Source: Rhizobium jaguaris (lineage in GTDB: Bacteria > Pseudomonadota > Alphaproteobacteria > Rhizobiales > Rhizobiaceae). From it: 64,000 nt of DNA. Below are positions 10,770 through 19,929 of this stretch, piece after piece (the first letter of the stretch is position 1; the number at the start of each line of letters is the position of its first letter). The stretch lies in the NCBI RefSeq assembly GCF_003627755.1, contig NZ_CP032695.1, forward strand, positions 1,240,001 to 1,304,000, read 5' to 3'. A program made the position numbers and the translations under genes. The notes beneath the pieces are model-generated. The model had not been told where the DNA came from and searched no databases. It saw nothing but the letters and a program-made list of their open reading frames with translations.

Positions 10770-12227
10770 TCAGGTAAGTCCACCGATATGGAAGGCCTTC
10801 GCTTCCAGATATTCTTCGATTCCGAGCTGTGAGCCTTCTCGCCCGAGACCCGATTGCTTGACGCCGCCGAACGGCGCAACCTCCGTGGAGATCAAGCCGG
10901 TGTTGAGACCCACCATGCCGAATTCCAGCGCCTCGCCCACCCGCCATGCGCGCTTCAGGCTCTCGGTATAGAAATAGGCCGCAAGTCCATAGGGCGTACC
11001 GTTGGCGATGGCGATAGCCTCGTCCTCCGTCTCGAAACGGAAGAGCGGCGCGACCGGTCCGAATGTCTCCTCGGCAGCGAGCTGCATGGCGGTGGTGGCT
11101 CCAGTCAGGACGATCGGCGCCGTATACTGCGGGCCGGTTGGCAGGGTCCTCCTGGCCGTCACGATGGTTGCGCCCTTCGAAAGTGCGTCTTCGACATGGC
11201 GGTTGATCTTGGCGATCGCCGCTTCATTGATCATGGGGCCGATTGCGACGCCGGCTTCGGTGCCCGGCCCGACCTTCATGGCATCGACGCGGGCGGTGAG
11301 TTTCTTGGCGAAAGCATCGTAGACGCCGGCCTGGACCAGGATGCGGTTGGCGCAGACGCAGGTCTGGCCGCCATTGCGGAACTTGGAGATGATCGCTCCC
11401 TCCACTGCGAGGTCGAGATCCGCGTCGTCGAAGACGATGAACGGGGCATTGCCGCCGAGTTCGAGGGATAGCCGCTTGATACTGCCCGCTGCTCCGCGCA
11501 TCAGTAGCGAGCCGACGGGCGTGGAGCCGGTAAATGAAATCTTGCGCACCGTCGGGTTTGCGAGGATCTCAGCGCCGATCGCCGCCGGCATGCCGGTGAC
11601 GATATTGACGACGCCCGCCGGAATACCGGCCATCTCGGCGAGCACGCCGAGCGCCAGCGCTGAGTAAGGGGTGAATTCGGACGGTTTCACGACGACCGTG
11701 CAGCCAGCCGCAAGTGCCGGCGCGAGCTTGCGCGTGATCATCGCGTTCGGAAAATTCCAGGGGGTGATGATGCCACACACTCCGACCGGTTCCTTCAGCA
11801 CCAGGATGCGGCGGTCCGGCGTTGGTGAGGGAATGGTCTGGCCACCGATGCGGCGTGCTTCTTCGGCGAACCATTTGACGAAGGACGCGCCGTAGCGGAT
11901 TTCGCCGCGGGCTTCGTCGAGCGGCTTGCCCTGTTCGGTCGTCAGGATGAGCGCCAGATCCTCGATGTGCTCGAGCATCAGATCATGCCAGGCTTGCAGC
12001 AGCGCGGCGCGTTCGGCGTGCGTGCGCTTCTTCCAGGGCGCATAGGCTGCCTCGGCGGCCTCGATCGCTGCTCGTGTCTCATCGCCGCTCAGGTCTGGCA
12101 CGGTTCCGATGACGGTCTGCGTTGCCGGGTCGACGACCGCAACAGTCTTGCCCGAGTGGGCCGGTTGCCAGTCGCCACCGATCAGTGCCTGCTGGCGGAA
12201 GAGGGATGGTACTTTTAGATTTTGCAT
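10770..12227 (-). CDS. gabD: Succinate-semialdehyde dehydrogenase (NAD(P)+)
   Basis: 485-residue aldehyde dehydrogenase matching the GabD subgroup along its length. The catalytic Cys is Cys290 in NGGQTCVCANR and the general base Glu256 lies in LELGGNAPF. ITPWNFPNAMITRKLAPALA and SFTGSTPVGS form the Rossmann cofactor site. The start at 12227 follows the usual GabD N-terminus. It converts succinate semialdehyde to succinate, feeding GABA-type carbon into the TCA cycle. It is the last gene of the leftward operon headed by the broken argE-like gene and is followed by the terminator at 10721. Confidence 0.93.
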   Translation of the reverse strand: MQNLKVPSLFRQQALIGGDWQPAHSGKTVAVVDPATQTVIGTVPDLSGDETRAAIEAAEAAYAPWKKRTHAERAALLQAWHDLMLEHIEDLALILTTEQGKPLDEARGEIRYGASFVKWFAEEARRIGGQTIPSPTPDRRILVLKEPVGVCGIITPWNFPNAMITRKLAPALAAGCTVVVKPSEFTPYSALALGVLAEMAGIPAGVVNIVTGMPAAIGAEILANPTVRKISFTGSTPVGSLLMRGAAGSIKRLSLELGGNAPFIVFDDADLDLAVEGAIISKFRNGGQTCVCANRILVQAGVYDAFAKKLTARVDAMKVGPGTEAGVAIGPMINEAAIAKINRHVEDALSKGATIVTARRTLPTGPQYTAPIVLTGATTAMQLAAEETFGPVAPLFRFETEDEAIAIANGTPYGLAAYFYTESLKRAWRVGEALEFGMVGLNTGLISTEVAPFGGVKQSGLGREGSQLGIEEYLEAKAFHIGGLT

Positions 12228-12248: not shown

Positions 12249-13289
12249 TCAAATTGCAGCGAGCAGTGCGGCCGTGATCACGTCGGTCCGGTCCTTGCCT
12301 GGAACCGTGCCAACACCGCTCGCCGTTGTTGCTTCGATGGCTGCCATGACGGCATTTGCCGCATCCCGCTCGCCCAGATGTTCAAGCATCATGGCGCCGG
12401 ACCACACGGTCGCGATCGGATTGGCGATGCCCAGATGGGCGATATCGGGCGCAGATCCGTGCACAGGTTCGAACATCGACGGAGCGTTCCGCTCAGGGTT
12501 GATATTCGCCGACGCCGCAAAACCGAGACCGCCCTGGATTGCCGCACCGAGATCCGTGAGGATGTCGCCGAAGAGGTTGGATGCGACGACCACGTCAAGC
12601 GTTTCCGGCGCCATCACCATGCGGGCCGCCATGGCATCGATGTGATAGCTCGTGACCTCGACATCCGGATAGTCTCGCGCGAGCTGTCGGGTGATCTCGT
12701 CCCAGAAGACCATGGAGTGCTTCTGAGCATTGGACTTTGTGACGGATGCGAGCTTGCCTCGACGGGCTTTCGCCTGCTCGAGGGCGAAACGCAGGATGCG
12801 TTCGACGCCTTTGCGGGTGAAAATCGAGGTCTCGACCGCGACCTCGTCAAGCGTGCCCTGATGAATGCGGCCACCGGCGCCTGAATATTCGCCCTCGGTG
12901 TTTTCACGAATGCAGAGGATGTCGAAAGCGGATGCCTTGAGTGGCCCGTGAACGCCCGGCAACAGGCGGTGCGGGCGAATATTGGCATATTGCACGAAGT
13001 TCTTTCGGATCGGCAGCAGCAGGCCATGCAGGGACACCGAATCCGGGACTTCGGCTGGCCAGCCGACAGCTCCCAGCAGAATGGCATCGAAACCGCGCAG
13101 GGTCTCGATTCCATCGGCGGGCATCATGGCGCCGGTCTCCTTGTAGAAGGCGCAGGACCAGGGGAATTCGATGCCCTCGAGTTTGAAGCCGAAGGCGTCC
13201 GCCGCTTTCTGCAGAACCGACCAGGCGGCAGCGGTCATGTCGCGTCCGATGCCGTCACCCGGGATCAATGCGATCTTGTAGGCTTTCAT
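12249..13289 (-). CDS. Tartrate dehydrogenase/isopropylmalate-isocitrate dehydrogenase family protein
   Basis: 346-residue NAD-dependent beta-decarboxylating dehydrogenase. The N-terminus ALIPGDGIG, the substrate-loop CIRENTEGEYSGAGG and the C-terminal FEPVHGSAPDIAHLG are the hallmarks. The wording of the ENTEGEYSG loop is closer to tartrate dehydrogenase/D-malate dehydrogenase (TtuC/DmlA) than to LeuB. The ATG at 13289 is preferred because GAGGAC lies at proper distance; a nearer ATG at 13295 and a TTG at 13304 are alternatives. It sits 11 bp after the aldehyde dehydrogenase stop. The likely role is oxidative decarboxylation of a hydroxy-diacid. Confidence 0.87.
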   Translation of the reverse strand: MKAYKIALIPGDGIGRDMTAAAWSVLQKAADAFGFKLEGIEFPWSCAFYKETGAMMPADGIETLRGFDAILLGAVGWPAEVPDSVSLHGLLLPIRKNFVQYANIRPHRLLPGVHGPLKASAFDILCIRENTEGEYSGAGGRIHQGTLDEVAVETSIFTRKGVERILRFALEQAKARRGKLASVTKSNAQKHSMVFWDEITRQLARDYPDVEVTSYHIDAMAARMVMAPETLDVVVASNLFGDILTDLGAAIQGGLGFAASANINPERNAPSMFEPVHGSAPDIAHLGIANPIATVWSGAMMLEHLGERDAANAVMAAIEATTASGVGTVPGKDRTDVITAALLAAI

Positions 13290-13300
13290 GTTCATTGTCC

Positions 13301-14764
13301 TCAAAGGCTGATCAAGACGCTCTTGCTCCTGCGGTTGGCCTGGAATGCCTCTCGGCCGAGATCCTTGCCGATGCCGGATTGCTTGTAGCCGCCGGTCGGT
13401 AGAATGTGGTCACGCGAGCGGCTATAGCGGTTCACCCAGACTGTGCCGGCCTGCAGGCGGCGGGTAAGCCGGATGGCGCGGGAGAGATCGCGAGTGAACA
13501 GACCCGCGGCAAGTCCGTAGCTCGGATGGTCGGCGAGCTGCAGGGCTTCCTCTTCGTCCTCGAATGTCTGAACCGTCAGCACCGGGCCGAAGATCTCCTC
13601 GACGATGGCCGGAGAATCCGGATCGACACCGGCCACCAGCGTGGGAGCATAGAAATAGCCTGGCGCGTCCATGCATGCGCCACCAGCAAGGCATTTTCCA
13701 CCAGCCATGACGGTGGCCGATACGATTGCGTCGATGCGCTGCCTCTGCTTCTCCGAGATGATGGGAGAGTATCGGCTCGCCGCATCCCAGGTGGGACGGG
13801 GGATGACTCCTTCCATTCGGCTCTTGATGGCATCGATGAACTGGGCTGCGACCTTTCTCTCGACGATGAGCCGTGACCCAGCCACGCAGGCCTGGCCCGC
13901 ATTACCCAGGATGCTCGCCGTGACCGCAGCCGCCGCCTTGTCGAGATCCGCATCGGCGAAGACGATCTGAGGGCTTTTGCCGCCGAGTTCGAGCGTCATC
14001 GGCTTTATGCCGGTGCGGGCGATATTCTCCATGATCGCCGAACCGGCCCGAGTCGAACCGGTGAAGCTTATCTTGGCGATCTCCGGATGGCCGGTGATCG
14101 CGTTGCCGGTCGTTACGCCATCGCCGAGAACCACGTTGATCAATCCGGCCGGAAGACCGGCACGCACCGCGAGCTGGGCCAGGTAGATGGTCGAGAACGG
14201 CGTCAACTCGGAGGGCTTCAGGACGACGGCGTTTCCTGCCGCCAGCGCCGGGCCAAGCTTCCAGGCGGCCATATTGATCGGGAAATTCCAGGGTGTGATG
14301 GCTCCGACAACCCCATAGGGCTCCGTCATGATCATGCCGAGATTGCCGTCGTCGGTCGGTACGAGGTCGCTGCCTTCCTTGTCGGCAAATTCGGCGAAGA
14401 AGCGGATCTGCTCTGCCGAAATCGCGATATCGCCTTCAACGAGCTGGCCTACGGGACGCGTCGAGGCGATGGCCTCGAGTTTGGCCAGCGTTTCGGCTTC
14501 CTGCTCGACAAGGTCTGCCCATCGATGAAGCACATTTAGGCGCTCGCGCGGTCGAACGCCTCCCCAATTGCTGTTCTTCAGCGCGGTTTTTGCCATCTGT
14601 ACCGCTTGGTCCACAAGGTCGGCATCCGCGACCGGGCATCCGGCATAAGCCTTTCCATCGGAGGGGCGGTGCATCGGAATGACGCCGTCCGCGGCGGCGA
14701 AATGATCGCCGATGAAATGCCCGACAGGAAGAGAAAGACTGTCGGGATCGAAGCTCAGATCCAT
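13301..14764 (-). CDS. NAD-dependent aldehyde dehydrogenase (PuuC/BetB-like)
   Basis: 487-residue aldehyde dehydrogenase with catalytic Cys293 (NAGQACVAGSR), Glu259 (LELGGKSPQ) and the cofactor segment ITPWNFPINMAAWKLGPALA. It resembles dehydrogenases of aminoaldehydes such as gamma-glutamyl-aminobutyraldehyde or betaine aldehyde; exact substrate unknown. The ATG at 14764 follows a GGAGG site seven bases upstream. It would oxidise the aldehyde produced by the FAD oxidase at 9403. It lies 141 bp downstream of the cupin gene and directly before the tartrate-type dehydrogenase. Confidence 0.9.
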   Translation of the reverse strand: MDLSFDPDSLSLPVGHFIGDHFAAADGVIPMHRPSDGKAYAGCPVADADLVDQAVQMAKTALKNSNWGGVRPRERLNVLHRWADLVEQEAETLAKLEAIASTRPVGQLVEGDIAISAEQIRFFAEFADKEGSDLVPTDDGNLGMIMTEPYGVVGAITPWNFPINMAAWKLGPALAAGNAVVLKPSELTPFSTIYLAQLAVRAGLPAGLINVVLGDGVTTGNAITGHPEIAKISFTGSTRAGSAIMENIARTGIKPMTLELGGKSPQIVFADADLDKAAAAVTASILGNAGQACVAGSRLIVERKVAAQFIDAIKSRMEGVIPRPTWDAASRYSPIISEKQRQRIDAIVSATVMAGGKCLAGGACMDAPGYFYAPTLVAGVDPDSPAIVEEIFGPVLTVQTFEDEEEALQLADHPSYGLAAGLFTRDLSRAIRLTRRLQAGTVWVNRYSRSRDHILPTGGYKQSGIGKDLGREAFQANRRSKSVLISL

Positions 14765-14905
14765 GATGATGCCTCCGGTCAATTTACGGAGATGCTATCG
14801 GGACCGGCAAAGCAGCTTGATCCGATCGCGTCGGCTGGCGCGGCGGAAAAACCCGTTTTGGGGCCAAATGGCAGCGCATTCTTTGGTCAAATCGGACCAC
14901 AGAAC

Positions 14906-15262
14906 TTAAGGCGTGACGGTCACGTAGATCTTGCGGACCGTCTCGATCGTCTTCCAGGTTCCGACGAAGCCTGGCTTCATGACGAAGCTGTCGCCGGCCT
15001 TGTAGACGACGGGTTCGCCGCCGTCAGGGGTTATTTCGATTACGCCAGAGAGAATGTGACAGAATTCAAAGGTCTTGCCCTTGATCGAACGGCTGACACC
15101 GGGCGTGGCTTCCCATACGCCGGTATGCACCGTCTCATTGCGGGCAACGTCCTGTGCCCAGGTCTTGAGCTTCGGATCGCCGGAGACTAGCCGCTCAGGA
15201 GCTGGAACGTTTTCGCGCGGTGCGAAGGAAGGACTCGGGTCAATCGTCTTAAGGAGGGACAT
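14906..15262 (-). CDS. Small cupin-domain protein (Cupin_3/DUF861 type)
   Basis: 118-residue single-domain cupin. The beta-barrel core lies at about residues 45-115, with FEFCHILSGVIEITPDGG and AGDSFVMKPGFVGTWK giving the two cupin motifs; the second lacks the usual metal-binding His. The ATG at 15262 follows a GAAAGGA site, and the longer frame to 15400 overlaps the upstream gene. This family includes (S)-ureidoglycine-type and uncharacterised proteins that accompany amine and amino-acid catabolic genes. Its role here is unknown. It lies 22 bp after the hydroxyacid dehydrogenase. Confidence 0.8.
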   Translation of the reverse strand: MSLLKTIDPSPSFAPRENVPAPERLVSGDPKLKTWAQDVARNETVHTGVWEATPGVSRSIKGKTFEFCHILSGVIEITPDGGEPVVYKAGDSFVMKPGFVGTWKTIETVRKIYVTVTP

Positions 15263-15284: not shown

Positions 15285-16208
15285 TCAGTAGCCGCGGCGG
15301 CGGTCGACGAGGCCGAGCGGGTCCAGTCCTGCCCGTATTCGTTTGATGTTGTCGATGACAGCGCGTGCGGCGCCATGGGGCTGAGTGACACTTGCGACAT
15401 GTGGCGTGAGCAAAATGCGCTCGTGGTTCCAGAAAGGGTGTCCCGCCGTCAGCGGTTCGGGATCGGTCACGTCGATCACGGCGCCGGCAAGCCGGCCACT
15501 GTCGAGTGCGGCCAGCAAGTCCTCAGAAACGAGCTGTGGTCCGCGGCCGGCATGCACGAGGCCAGCACCCTCCGGCAATTTGTCAAAGAGATTGGAATTG
15601 AGGAAGCCGCGGGTCTCGTCGGTCAGCGGAAGCAGGCAGATCAAGATGTCGGTGGCGGAAAGCATGGCTTGAAGTCCTGTTTCGCCGGCAAAACAGGTAA
15701 CGCCGTCCAGTTCGCGTTGATTGCGGCTCCAGCCGGAAAGCGAAAAGCCGAACGGCTTCAGCCTGTCGAGCACGGCTTGTCCCAGGTTTCCGAGCCCCAG
15801 TACGCCGATGCTGCGGTCGGCGGCCTGAATCTGCGGCAAGGTATTCCAGATCTGGCTGCGCTGTTGACCGAGATAGGCGGGAAGATTGCGGTGAAGCGCC
15901 AGGACCCCAAGCGTCACATATTCCTGCATCATGCTGGTGATGCCGTCTTCGACCATTCGCACGATTTTTATGTGATCCGGGATATGCGCTGTATTGAACT
16001 GATCGATGCCGGCGCCGATGGAAAACAGCACTTCGAGATTGCTGTAGCGCGGCAGCTCGTCCGGAACCGTCCAGGTTATCAAATAGCGCACGGCTTCTGG
16101 ATCGACCGATGACGGATCCATGGAAAAAGGCATGTCCGGCAGTTCCCGTGCGAAGGCTTCCTTAAAGATATGGCCGCGGCGGGGATCTGAGTTGAAAAGA
16201 AACGTCAT
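15285..16208 (-). CDS. ghrA: D-2-hydroxyacid dehydrogenase, glyoxylate/hydroxypyruvate reductase A type
   Basis: 307-residue D-isomer 2-hydroxyacid dehydrogenase. The NAD(P)-binding motif is [16 protein letters not shown] followed by the Arg of [10 protein letters not shown] that favours NADPH. The catalytic Arg is in HAGRGPQLV, Glu in [12 protein letters not shown] and His in LTPHVASVT, as in GhrA. It reduces glyoxylate or hydroxypyruvate-like 2-oxoacids in the cytoplasm. It starts 28 bp after the stop of the broken argE-like gene, so it belonged to the same transcript before the IS insertion. Confidence 0.88.
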
Positions 16209-16236
16209 CAGCTATGCATCCTTCGGTCTTGCGGCA

Positions 16237-16395
16237 TCACGCCAGGCAACGTCGGCCGAGAGCCTCTACCAGGGCCTGGCAGGCTGCGAGTTCGTCCATG
16301 AGAATGAATTCGTCCGGCTTGTGCGCGCGTCCGATATCGCCGGGGCCGCAGATGACCGCTTCCAGGCCGGCACGCTGGTAGAGTCCGGCTTCTGT
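16237..16395 (-). pseudogene. argE: argE-like M20 deacylase, C-terminal fragment cut off by IS insertion
   Basis: This 53-codon piece encodes TEAGLYQRAGLEAVICGPGD and then a segment with AHKPDEF, ending at a TGA at 16239-16237. It is the conserved C-terminal zinc-ligand and dimer-edge region of acetylornithine deacetylase relatives. The rest of the gene is at 18964-19929. Joined at the IS edges, the halves read S-Y-G-T-E-A-G in frame and give a normal 374-residue protein. It has no start of its own and should not be translated usefully. Confidence 0.92.
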
Positions 16396-16531
16396 GCCAA
16401 GGACGAAGCCGCTCGCGCGGCATTGGCGCCCGTGGTGACGGTGCAGCAACGATCTGAACGCCGTGCATTTTGTGGGTTTGCCGTCCTGGCTGAGGATTGG
16501 GGTCTTCTCAATCACCAGACAGGAGGTTCCC

Positions 16532-17419
16532 ATGACGGAGGAGAAGACGACCCCGCTGCGCGAACGGATGATCGAAGACATGCGCATCCGCGGGATGGGC
16601 GACAAAGTCCGGCAAGCCCATATTCGGGCGATCAAGGATTTCGCCGGGTTTCTGAAGCGATCTCCGGATACCGCGACACCCGACGACCTGCGCGCCTACC
16701 AATTGCACATGACCAATGCGGGCGTCACGCCGCCGACCTTCAACGCCCGCATCGTCGCGCTGAGGTTCTTTTTCGGCATCACCTGCGACCGCGAAGAGAT
16801 GAAGCGGCATATGCAGTTCCGTCGGCAACCGCAGAAGTTGCCCGTTGTCTTGAGCGTTGAGGAGGTTTCCGACCTGCTTGTGGCGGCCCAGGGGCCGGGC
16901 CTGAAGTATCGAGCGGCGCTCAGCATCTCCTATGGCGCCGGACTGCGGGCCTCCGAAGTCTGCAACCTCAAGATCAGCGACATCGACAGCGATCGGATGC
17001 TGATCCATGTCGAACAGGGCAAGGGACAGAAGGACCGCAAGGTGATGCTGTCGCCCCTGCTGCTGGAACTCTTGCGCGACTATTGGCGCGAGTCACGGCC
17101 GCAGGGCTGGCTTTTTCCTGGCAAACCGAAGATCAACCCGATCTCGCCGCGGCAGCTCAACCGCGCCTTCACCGCCGCCAAAAAACTGGCCGGGATCGCC
17201 AAGCCAGCGACGCTGCACACCCTGCGGCACAGTTTTGCCACCCACCTGCTGGAAGCGAACACGGATGTGCGGGTGATCCAGGTCCTTCTGGGACACGCCA
17301 AGCTGACGACCACCGCCCGTTATATGCATGTCGCCACGAAGACGATCCGCGACACGATCAGCCCGTTCGAGACCCTGAAGAAGCTGCAGGACCAAACGCT
17401 CCGACGCGAACTGGAGTAG
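16532..17419 (+). CDS. Tyrosine recombinase/integrase of the IS91-type element
   Basis: 295-residue XerC/D-like recombinase. The N-terminal SAM-like DNA-binding domain covers about residues 1-95. The catalytic domain has all expected residues: Arg139 (GAGLRASEV), Lys164 (GKGQKDRK), His229-x-x-Arg232 (HTLRHSFATHLLE), His255 (LLGHAKLTTT) and nucleophile Tyr264 (ARYMHV). The ATG at 16532 has AGGAGG 8 bases upstream. It ends 10 bases before the transposase start, so both form one unit. Its job in transposition is not known; it may resolve or circularise intermediates. Confidence 0.93.
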   Translation: MTEEKTTPLRERMIEDMRIRGMGDKVRQAHIRAIKDFAGFLKRSPDTATPDDLRAYQLHMTNAGVTPPTFNARIVALRFFFGITCDREEMKRHMQFRRQPQKLPVVLSVEEVSDLLVAAQGPGLKYRAALSISYGAGLRASEVCNLKISDIDSDRMLIHVEQGKGQKDRKVMLSPLLLELLRDYWRESRPQGWLFPGKPKINPISPRQLNRAFTAAKKLAGIAKPATLHTLRHSFATHLLEANTDVRVIQVLLGHAKLTTTARYMHVATKTIRDTISPFETLKKLQDQTLRRELE

Positions 17420-17429
17420 CGCCCGTCCG

Positions 17430-18623
17430 GTGATCCGGCCAAAACTGGAGATCGCCGACATCTTCCGTGCCTATGGCCCGGCGTGGCGGCGGGCCAATGC
17501 CGGGCATGTTAGCCTGACCCAGCTCAAGGTCATGGCGGCGATCGAGGCCTGCCGAACCGAGGCGCTCGGCGGGCATGTGGCAGCCTGTGCCAAATGCGGC
17601 CACCATCACATCGCCTACAATTCCTGCAAGAATCGGCACTGCCCGAAGTGCCAGGGACCCGCGGCGCGGGACTGGATGGCCGCCCGTGCCGAAGACCTGC
17701 TGCCGGTCGAGTATTTCCATGTTGTCTTCACCATCCCCGCCGAGATCGCGCAGATCGCCTATTGGAATAAGAAGACGGTCTATGATCTTCTATTCCGGGC
17801 ATCGGCGGAGACGTTGACCACCATCGCCGCCGATCCCCGGCACCTTGGCGCAAACATCGGCATGACCAGCGTGCTGCACACCTGGGGGTCGGCGCTGACC
17901 CATCACCCGCATGTGCACATCGTCGTGCCCGGCGGTGGACTGTCGCCGGATGGCACGCGCTGGATTGGCTGTCGCCCGGGGTTCCTTCTGCCCATAAAGG
18001 TTCTGTCTCGTCTGTTTCGGCGGCTGTTTCTCGAAGGACTGATGGCACTCAGTCAATCCGGGGTGCTCTGCTTCTTCGGCGATCTAGCCCGGCTTGCAGA
18101 GGCGGATGCCTTCGCTGCCTGGCTTGCCCCCTTCCGCAAATCCGACTGGGTCGTCTACACCAAGCCCCCATTCGGCGGCCCCGAGGCCGTGCTGGCCTAT
18201 CTCAGCCGCTACACGCACCGCGTGGCGATCTCGAACAGCCGCCTGATCAGCGCGAATGCCGAGGCGGTCACCTTCCGCTGGAAGGACTACCGCATCAAGA
18301 CCGGTGACCGTCACAAGGTCATGCGGCTGGCCACCGACGAGTTCATCCGCCGCTTCCTAATCCACGTGCTGCCCGACGGATTCCACCGCATCCGCCACTA
18401 CGGCCTGCTGGCCGGAGCAGGCCGCAAGGCCAATGTCGCAAAGATAAGGAAACTGCTCGGGACGGAAGCGCCATCACAGGACGACACGCCAAGCGCCGAG
18501 AGCATCCCGCTCACCCTGAGGCAGCCATGCCCAGATTGCGGCGGCCCGATGCGCATCGTCGAGATATTCCGCCGTGGCCAGCGACCCAAATCCCGTGCGC
18601 CACCCCGAAAGGACGCCGCATGA
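17430..18623 (+). CDS. IS91-family transposase (HUH single-Tyr rolling-circle type)
   Basis: 397-residue transposase with an N-terminal zinc-binding domain (Cys53, Cys56, Cys66, Cys71, Cys74), the metal-binding HUH motif HPHVHIVVPGG (His161 and His163) and a likely catalytic Tyr261 in YLSRYTHRVAISNSR. A second zinc-ribbon pair (CPDCGGPM) is near the C-terminus. The start is a GTG at 17430, and it appears intact. It should nick single-stranded DNA at the element's origin end and drive rolling-circle transposition. Confidence 0.93.
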   Translation: MIRPKLEIADIFRAYGPAWRRANAGHVSLTQLKVMAAIEACRTEALGGHVAACAKCGHHHIAYNSCKNRHCPKCQGPAARDWMAARAEDLLPVEYFHVVFTIPAEIAQIAYWNKKTVYDLLFRASAETLTTIAADPRHLGANIGMTSVLHTWGSALTHHPHVHIVVPGGGLSPDGTRWIGCRPGFLLPIKVLSRLFRRLFLEGLMALSQSGVLCFFGDLARLAEADAFAAWLAPFRKSDWVVYTKPPFGGPEAVLAYLSRYTHRVAISNSRLISANAEAVTFRWKDYRIKTGDRHKVMRLATDEFIRRFLIHVLPDGFHRIRHYGLLAGAGRKANVAKIRKLLGTEAPSQDDTPSAESIPLTLRQPCPDCGGPMRIVEIFRRGQRPKSRAPPRKDAA

Positions 18624-18890
18624 CGAAACGCCTGTCACATCAGCCAAGGCCGGCCCGGATCTGCGATGCATTCCGGGGTGGCGCCGATTTGCGCCAGGCA
18701 ACGCCGCACACTGCAAAACCGCCGATGCGAGGCCTACGAAAGAGGAGCACCCCAACCCCGATCGCGTCATTGCAAGCCTTCGGGGCAACCCGCTTGCACC
18801 CGACGCTCCCACCGATAGCCACCTCAGAAAACCGCAGCCGCACGCTTTCCCCATAGGCGCTCCACCCAGCCCCCGCAGGCCTCCTCCTTG

Positions 18891-18963
18891 GAAGGTTTTT
18901 CAACGCGGGCCGACACACGCCCAGCCGCCACCGTCACACCGCGGCCCGCATCGAAAAACCTTC
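18891..18963. repeat. Large inverted repeat at the right end of the IS91-type element
   Basis: Arms 18891-18912 and 18942-18963 are 22 bases each and complementary at 20 positions (GAAGGTTTTTC...GCGGGCCG), with a 29-base spacer. The outer arm ends exactly at the inferred element edge. Its place downstream of the transposase matches the origin end of IS91-family elements, which contain stem-loops recognised by the transposase; this stem is unusually long. It could also be an inverted pair of recombinase sites. The 267 bp from 18624 to 18890 hold no supported gene. Confidence 0.8.
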
Positions 18964-19929
18964 ACCATAGCTGACGGCTGGCAGTGGCTCGATGCCGGTC
19001 AGTTCCGCTAGCAGACAGGCGAGGGGAGCGGTCCGAGGAAGGGAGAGTGCAGGGTAGGAGCTCAGCGTCTCCCATTCGACACGGAACTCCCGGTGCTCAA
19101 GCGCTGCAGCGGCATCACGCACCGGAGACAGCAGTGCCGCTGGGTCCGCGCTGGAAATCGCCCGTGCTTCGATCTCCAGAGTGCAGAGGTCCGGAATGAT
19201 GTTGACGGCCTGCCCGCCTTGAATGGTGCCGACCGAGACGGACGAATAGGGGGGCTCGAACTCTGTTTCGAACGGTCCTTTCGCAAGAGCTTGGGCGGTC
19301 GAGACAGCTGACCGCAGAACCTCGCCGACGGCATGGATTGCGTTGAGCCCCAAGTCAGGCCGCGACGAATGACCGGAACGCCCTTTCACGGTGACGCGAG
19401 CCGCTGCCTTGCCCTTGTGCGCCAGGATGGCGCGCATGTTGCTCGGCTCTCCGACGATCACACCGAGCGGTGTTTCGCAAAGCTCCGGCAAACGCGCAAT
19501 AAGATGCGGCACGCCGCGGCAGCCCGCCTCCTCGTCATAGGAAAAGGCAAAATGGATCGGCCGCATAAGAGGGCTTGCAACAAGCATCGGCACAGCCGCC
19601 AAAGATGCCGCCAGAAACCCCTTCATGTCGCTGGTCCCGCGACCATACAGTCTTTCGCCGTCTACCCGCAGCACGAAGGGATCGCTCGTCCAGCCCTTTT
19701 CATTGGCCGGCACGACGTCCGTGTGACCGGAGAAGACATAACCCGGTTTGTCGCGGGGGCCGATCGTCGCGAGAAGGTTCGACCGGTCGCCTTCAGGGCC
19801 GGGAATGATATCAACCTTGGCCCCGAAAGATTTCAGGTAGGCCTTGATCCACTCGATGATATCCGCGTTTGTTGTTCCGACGACCGACTCGAAACTCACG
19901 AGTTTTGCCAGGATGTCCGGGGCGTGCAT
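18964..19929 (-). pseudogene. argE: argE-like M20 deacylase, N-terminal part disrupted by IS insertion
   Basis: 322 codons of an acetylornithine deacetylase/succinyl-diaminopimelate desuccinylase family metallopeptidase. Visible are the metal-binding motifs SGHTDVVPA and GRGTSDMKGF, the catalytic YDEEAGCRG, and the dimerisation loop KGRSGHSSRPDLG. The frame then runs into the IS and stops at 18934 after about ten foreign residues. It lacks the last 52 residues, including the conserved His-bearing AHKP segment, so activity is unlikely. The ATG at 19929 fits family N-termini; a longer frame begins at 20037. It headed the operon down to gabD. Confidence 0.92.

Follow-up and report, generated by a model that had tools for sequence, protein, structure and literature searches.

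An IS91-type element with a tyrosine recombinase splits an argE-like gene of Rhizobium jaguaris at a preferred site and carries an exchangeable 4-bp spacer

Introduction

What kind of element has split an argE-like gene of Rhizobium jaguaris, and what has placed it there? The gene lies in a stretch of 64,000 nucleotides (hereafter the window; assembly GCF_003627755.1, contig NZ_CP032695.1, positions 1,240,001 to 1,304,000, or C2:1240001-1304000) of an 8.0 Mb genome in four contigs. The initial annotation of this window had proposed that an IS91-type element splits the gene; it mentioned neither a recombinase, nor the 12 copies, nor the site preference with which the argE site agrees. The disruption of argE is in itself ordinary; the element, which encodes both a predicted HUH transposase and a simple tyrosine recombinase (YR), is the more interesting object. 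We lean modestly towards the view that it inserted at a preferred NCC site, inactivating argE, and that its integration was driven at least partly by the YR, over an exchangeable 4-bp spacer. Since IS databases record a recombinase open reading frame (ORF) for some IS91 elements, we do not claim the gene pair itself as new. An open-access literature search found no paper on how IS91-type elements with a YR choose their targets or exchange their spacer.

Results

The argE-like gene is intact in relatives

The argE empty site is real, because the two parts of the gene are contiguous, with zero gap and the joined peptide SYGTEAG, in 29/29 same-genus loci, and four plasmid relatives likewise carry the joined SYGTEAG. 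These loci come from a ghrA search of 120 same-genus genomes, which gave matches in 75, our own included; the best 29 of the 74 other matches were compared. The rebuilt argE empty site also aligned with zero gap in 7/7 of the relatives given. Together with a curated transposase model, these empty sites bear out the proposal that an IS91-type element splits an argE-like gene, and an empty site lacking the joined frame was looked for in the 29 same-genus loci and not found. The joined frame of the initial annotation thus stands, with its 374 codons, but its junction was one base off. The pieces on either side of the 2,568-bp stretch first delimited (16396-18963) end S-Y-G and begin T-E-A-G. The first base of that stretch varies between copies of the element in this genome, an A directly follows its right edge in 12/12 of them, and the wobble base of the split glycine codon is mostly C in the 29 relatives (C 19, T 5, G 3, A 2). 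The reading that fits best therefore assigns base 16396 to the host and base 18964 to the element, and makes 16397-16400 (CCAA) an exchangeable spacer.

The element is multicopy and recently active. There are 12 copies in the genome, all with the same 2,564 bp, and compared with the stretch first delimited they differ only at its variable first base and, in one copy, at the fourth. Three copies stand in tandem, head-to-tail, at 2,568-bp spacing (L005-L007, contig C1:2107299-2116625). The array has CCGA as its outer left spacer, CCAA at the inner junctions and CCGA as its right flank, and it likely arose by insertion of CCAA-carrying circles next to a copy already present, at its right edge. 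The host flanks of our copies read CC(A/G) at 10/10 sites and do not follow a rule of the GAAC/CAAG tetranucleotide type.

Other empty sites were rebuilt where relatives allowed. The L008 site closed with zero gap in two relatives (seven given), and the base before CC differs. No spanning alignment was obtained for L010 or L002 in seven relatives each, and L004 had no useful plasmid relative. The copy L003 (contig C2:2396621-2400811) also interrupts a gene, whose relatives are UbiD-family decarboxylases. The copies L001 and L011 have a common left flank of about 38 nt and different right flanks; perhaps a repeated intergenic sequence served as target. No gene cassettes were seen at the insertion sites inspected.

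The left spacer differs between otherwise identical copies

Relatives of the element were collected in one scan of species genomes, which gave 240 matches to the recombinase; 80 of the 240 were kept (mostly alphaproteobacteria), and edge motifs served to place the junctions wherever the contigs permitted. The left edge has the form [dinucleotide][NN]GGAC(G/T)AAGCCGC, where NN are two variable bases. Most right edges close with CTTCA; those of BR816 have CTTCG, and three loci have CTTAA. The dinucleotides of the two edges are the same in 61 of the 66 two-edged loci (CC 36, GG 18, AC 4, TC 3), a set that includes our own copies and five contigs ending right after the dinucleotide. A GG left edge with a GT right edge is found in L073, L075 and L078 (Ensifer sp. 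USDA 6670).

The 4-bp left spacer is exchanged and not inherited with the element. Five copies in S. terangae, with 0 mismatches over 2,554 bp, have the left NN AA, AA, CA, AG and TG; four BR816 copies with 1-2 differences over 2,560 bp have TA, GA, TA and AA; and a pair of Thalassobacter copies without a mismatch in 2,557 bp has different spacers, one of them via a one-base shift. Moreover, the left NN (n=78) and the target NN (n=65) have the same distribution (p 0.60 and 0.27), and the left NN differ from the background at both positions (~1e-21 and ~1e-19). Each of the 12 CC-type left NN of BR816 is also present among the eight CC-type right NN of that genome (P 0.014, draws from pooled right NN). 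Note that in one Thalassobacter locus, L112, the left edge is seemingly shifted by one base, and TCAGA stands on both sides of the element.

The target is an extended preferred site

The preferred extended insertion site reads ..GGC|CC NN AGCNGACNTTCG. The consensus of 65 distinct right flanks is CC-A-A-A-G-C-N-G-A-C-N-T-T-C-G, and the 78 distinct left flanks show a tendency to close with GGC. A site matrix built from 55 right and 69 left flanks, all of them from other genomes, puts all 10 of our own sites in the top 1.05% of the 9,467 CC sites of the window. The argE site falls in the top 0.03% and ranks 1/182 among the CC sites of the rebuilt gene. Single arms are weaker, as for L002, whose right arm alone lies only in the top 23%. 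This cross-genome prediction of our own sites is the strongest single result of the study.

Two other descriptions of the target were tried and found no support. The consensus core AAAGCGGACNTTCG has 0 exact matches in the genome (three for the reversed control), and therefore the site is a preference and not a host repeat. Palindromic targets at the level of single sites were rejected. Inverted-repeat scores of 53 sites do exceed those of CC/GG sites in the window (4.38 vs 3.59 of 14, P 0.0008). However, reshuffled left flanks give as many pairs as the real ones (240 vs 232 observed, P 0.79), and thus the symmetry is present only between the two arm consensuses.

The site dinucleotide may follow the recombinase more closely than the transposase

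In all, 84 loci fall into one of four dinucleotide classes, by the right flank where known and else by the left; 61 have both proteins and 42 of these are non-redundant. The nearest YR predicted the site dinucleotide in 40/42 non-redundant loci and the nearest transposase in 35/42. Both failures of the YR are failures of the transposase too, and the five loci where the two predictions disagree all follow the YR. The clearest case is L058, which sits at CC: its YR is 93% identical to the CC type and 83% to the AC type, whereas its transposase has 89% identity to the AC type and 85% to the CC type. That the dinucleotide follows the YR more closely than the transposase is suggestive only.

Anatomy of the element

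The two ORFs of the element lie on the plus strand, opposite to the operon (Table 1). The YR encoded by ORF1 has intact active-site motifs. ORF2 carries HPHVH and YLSRY, that is, the HUH motif and two tyrosines spaced by four, and its activity is predicted. For the IS91 transposase, passages of PMC5714925 give the tyrosines as Y249 and Y253. The right-end hairpin folds more strongly on the bottom strand (z -6.07) than on the top strand (z -3.96), and a repeat search found no inverted repeat pairing the two element ends. Host CC follows the constant element on the right. By its predicted transposase the element belongs to the IS91 family: the curated model, the HUH and tyrosine motifs and the ori-end hairpin were all found.

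Among eight annotated plasmid regions, spread down the similarity ranking, a recombinase gene stands directly upstream of the IS91-type transposase in six and is not listed in two, in a plasmid gene table that is incomplete. At L243 (Vibrio campbellii plasmid pVCGX2) a distant pair of recombinase and IS91 transposase adjoins arr, for rifampin ADP-ribosyltransferase. The Sphingomonas plasmid at L238 (NZ_CP155766.1, 4,862 bp) lists only recombinase and IS91 transposase genes, and an additional 450-codon ORF is present; it was tested as a circular dimer of the element and is not one. A short BR816 copy with both ends, considered as a minimal element, is interrupted by a run of N.

Table 1. Coordinates in the window of the element, the split gene and the operon
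Feature	Position	Strand	Remarks
Constant part of the IS91-type element, 2,564 bp	16401..18964	+	No differences among the 12 own copies
Left 4-bp spacer CCAA (dinucleotide CC + NN), exchangeable	16397..16400	+	Variable in other genomes between copies that are otherwise identical; also differs in one own copy
ORF1, predicted YR	16463..17419	+	Phage_integrase PF00589, 144 bits; Phage_int_SAM_4; LRASE, HTLRH, LGH and YMH motifs
ORF2, predicted IS91-family HUH transposase	17430..18623	+	NF033538, 432.2 bits vs cutoff 125; Y2_Tnp, Zn_Tnp_IS91; zinc-binding N-terminus
Hairpin, right (oriIS-like) end	18891..18963	-	Arms 18891-18912 and 18942-18963, 91% complementary
Target right arm CCATAGCTGACGGCTG at the argE site	18965..18980	+	Fits the consensus of other insertion sites
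argE-like gene, 5' part (host side of right junction)	18965..19929	-	TIGR01892, Peptidase_M20, M20_dimer
argE-like gene, 3' part, 52 codons + stop	16237..16396	-	C-terminal end of intact relatives, 80-89% identity in four; empty sites
Truncated product from ATG 19929, 331 aa	18934..19929	-	Translation as now encoded
ghrA-like, operon gene 2	15285..16208	-	2-Hacid_dh_C; conserved order
Cupin gene	14906..15262	-	Cupin_3; start 15262 matches relatives' length (357-nt gene in Pop5)
Aldehyde dehydrogenase	13301..14782	-	Aldedh
Tartrate-type dehydrogenase	12249..13304	-	TIGR02089, 572 bits vs cutoff 470
gabD-like succinate-semialdehyde dehydrogenase	10770..12227	-	TIGR01780, 671 bits vs cutoff 646

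Consequences for argE and the genes behind it

The 5' part of the split gene alone (18964-19929) scores 386.5 bits against the TIGR01892 model for acetylornithine deacetylase, above the equivalog cutoff of 297.7; against NF003474, another ArgE model, the split gene scores below the cutoff. By the curated model the gene is classed as an acetylornithine deacetylase-type (ArgE-type M20) enzyme, with a predicted substrate. As now encoded, the last nine of the 331 residues of the product come from the element, and the 52 C-terminal residues are gone, an end piece that contains AHKPDEF and that, in M20 enzymes, carries the last metal-binding histidine. From this truncation we strongly infer that the insertion inactivates the deacylase. 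The next best homologue in the genome has 40% identity.

The split gene does head an operon, as had been proposed: two annotated relatives, R. leguminosarum 248 and Rhizobium sp. Pop5, have the six genes argE, ghrA, cupin, aldehyde dehydrogenase, tartrate-type dehydrogenase and gabD in the same order. Among plasmid records, the nearest are those of Rhizobium sp. CCGE531, CCGE532 and R. tropici CIAT 899, with 86-87% identity over about 60% of a 9.4-kb query. A polar effect, which would lower the expression of the five genes behind argE, is plausible and on balance likely. The alternative, that the insertion is non-polar and that ghrA to gabD are transcribed from the element or from an internal promoter, strikes us as less likely than not. 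It would agree with the outward promoters described on ISCR1, of the IS91 group, in PMC6218425, and with the open reading frames of all five genes behind a young insertion. However, argE and ghrA are only 28 nt apart, and a simple sigma-70 scan, with other promoter types outside its reach, found 0 promoter-like sites in 16200-16800 (0.2 in shuffles), and this speaks weakly against a promoter supplied by the element. A simple scan of the same interval, at the left end of the element, found 0 terminator-like sites.

Discussion

How, then, may such an element move? Because the right-edge hairpin is stronger on the bottom strand and the HUH motifs are present, single-strand copying as in IS91 is suggested; because the spacer is exchanged with the flanks and the target site is long, tyrosine recombination is suggested too. 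The HUH enzyme would copy the element out from the hairpin end, as a single strand or circle. The YR would then pick the target and perform one or more of the strand exchanges across the 4-bp spacer; as a result, the new copy would usually have a left spacer from the donor's earlier target and a right spacer from the new one. We favour this division, with the HUH enzyme for copying and the YR for integration, since strand-biased circularizing integrative elements (SEs) likewise carry a flank-derived spacer to the other side: in the parts of PMC10214605 that concern them, the circle carries a 6-bp spacer derived from the flank, which is placed on the opposite side at the new insertion.

A different account would need only the HUH enzyme, which would move the element by the canonical rolling circle of IS91; the 4 bp would be the tetranucleotide that the family usually has at both ends, and the YR a multimer resolver or a passenger. 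We regard this as a genuine possibility, though not one that we would expect to hold. It would explain an IS91-family transposase far above its model cutoff, the strong end hairpin and the absence of a longer target duplication, and it is helped by the two plasmid regions in which the transposase has no listed recombinase neighbour. For IS801, passages of PMC3189936 describe a left-end tetranucleotide that resembles its targets GAAC, GGAC, CAAG and CGAC. However, a tetranucleotide that travels with the element should not vary among copies without a mismatch in 2,554 bp, the extended target arm far exceeds a tetranucleotide in length, and the dinucleotide class follows the YR, not the transposase, where the two disagree. 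Point mutations or assembly errors are a very improbable source of the NN differences. S. terangae and BR816 are indeed draft assemblies, the BR816 scaffold with runs of N, but the differences fall at the same two positions in independent genomes, beside otherwise identical sequence; one case is found within the complete replicon set of our own genome, and the left NN have the composition of target NN.

Several observations weigh against integration by the YR over an exchanged spacer. The left NN of our own genome is AA at all edges but one, a near constancy that plain inheritance, as in the canonical IS91 account, would also fit. The left and right dinucleotides differ in 5/66 loci (GG/GT three times, CC/AC once and CA/TC once). 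The five-to-nil split between YR and transposase is not significant alone (two-sided 0.06), L071 and L098 are decided by tiny margins, and the class of L116 comes from its left edge alone. At L003 the rebuilt empty site leaves one extra base in this strain in 2/2 relatives. No circular form of the element was observed, and the spacer, at 4 bp, is shorter than the 6 bp of the SEs. Finally, when pairs with unlike dinucleotides are dropped, the left NN equals the right NN in 15/54 pairs vs 9.5 expected (P 0.026), and in 10/44 vs 5.9 expected (P 0.051) without our own copies. Since this is above expectation, a minority of left spacers may come from the same target as the right.

The comparison of element copies suggests a site rule that is not expected for the IS91 family. 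Going further, we put forward tentatively, and short of calling it probable, that these elements are miniature integrative elements and not classical IS91 insertion sequences: the HUH enzyme would copy out a single strand, the YR would integrate it at preferred sites, and the 4-bp spacer would pass from the target of the parent to the left edge of the child. If this is true, a group annotated simply as IS91-family insertion sequences, here mostly alphaproteobacterial, moves by a two-enzyme route. Each copy would record its parent's site, and the left spacer would be a readable trace of parentage, which would allow the history of transposition to be rebuilt from genome sequences. One could predict in part where the elements land, and the position of the element within argE in this strain would be explained.

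Among known systems, the integrons and Xer recombinases resemble the element in the sequence of ORF1, which scores 184 bits against the XerA model (cutoff 220) and 168.4 bits, in two stretches, against the integron integrase model TIGR02249 (cutoff 265), in both cases below the curated cutoff. In Tn916-type conjugative transposons the spacer comes from the former flanks; they are unlike the element in size, gene content and spacer length. A heteroduplex spacer is mentioned for them in a passage of PMC10214605. The SEs, as that source describes them in part, share a flank-derived spacer and a tyrosine recombinase with our element, but have two recombinases and two further proteins, no HUH enzyme and a 6-bp spacer, whereas the element has one recombinase, one HUH enzyme and a 4-bp spacer in 2.56 kb. 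With the IS91 family (IS91, IS801, IS1294, ISCR) it shares the HUH transposase with a zinc-binding domain, the downstream hairpin, the lack of terminal inverted repeats and, judging from the part of PMC3189936 on IS801, a 4-bp signature at both edges. Unlike that family it has a second enzyme, the YR, and an extended CC/GG/AC/TC target instead of GAAC or CAAG, and in contrast to the narrow insertion rule of IS91 and IS801, its left 4 bp are not inherited with the element. We see the element as an IS91 variant whose target is extended, whose spacer is exchangeable and whose integration may well be driven in part by the YR.

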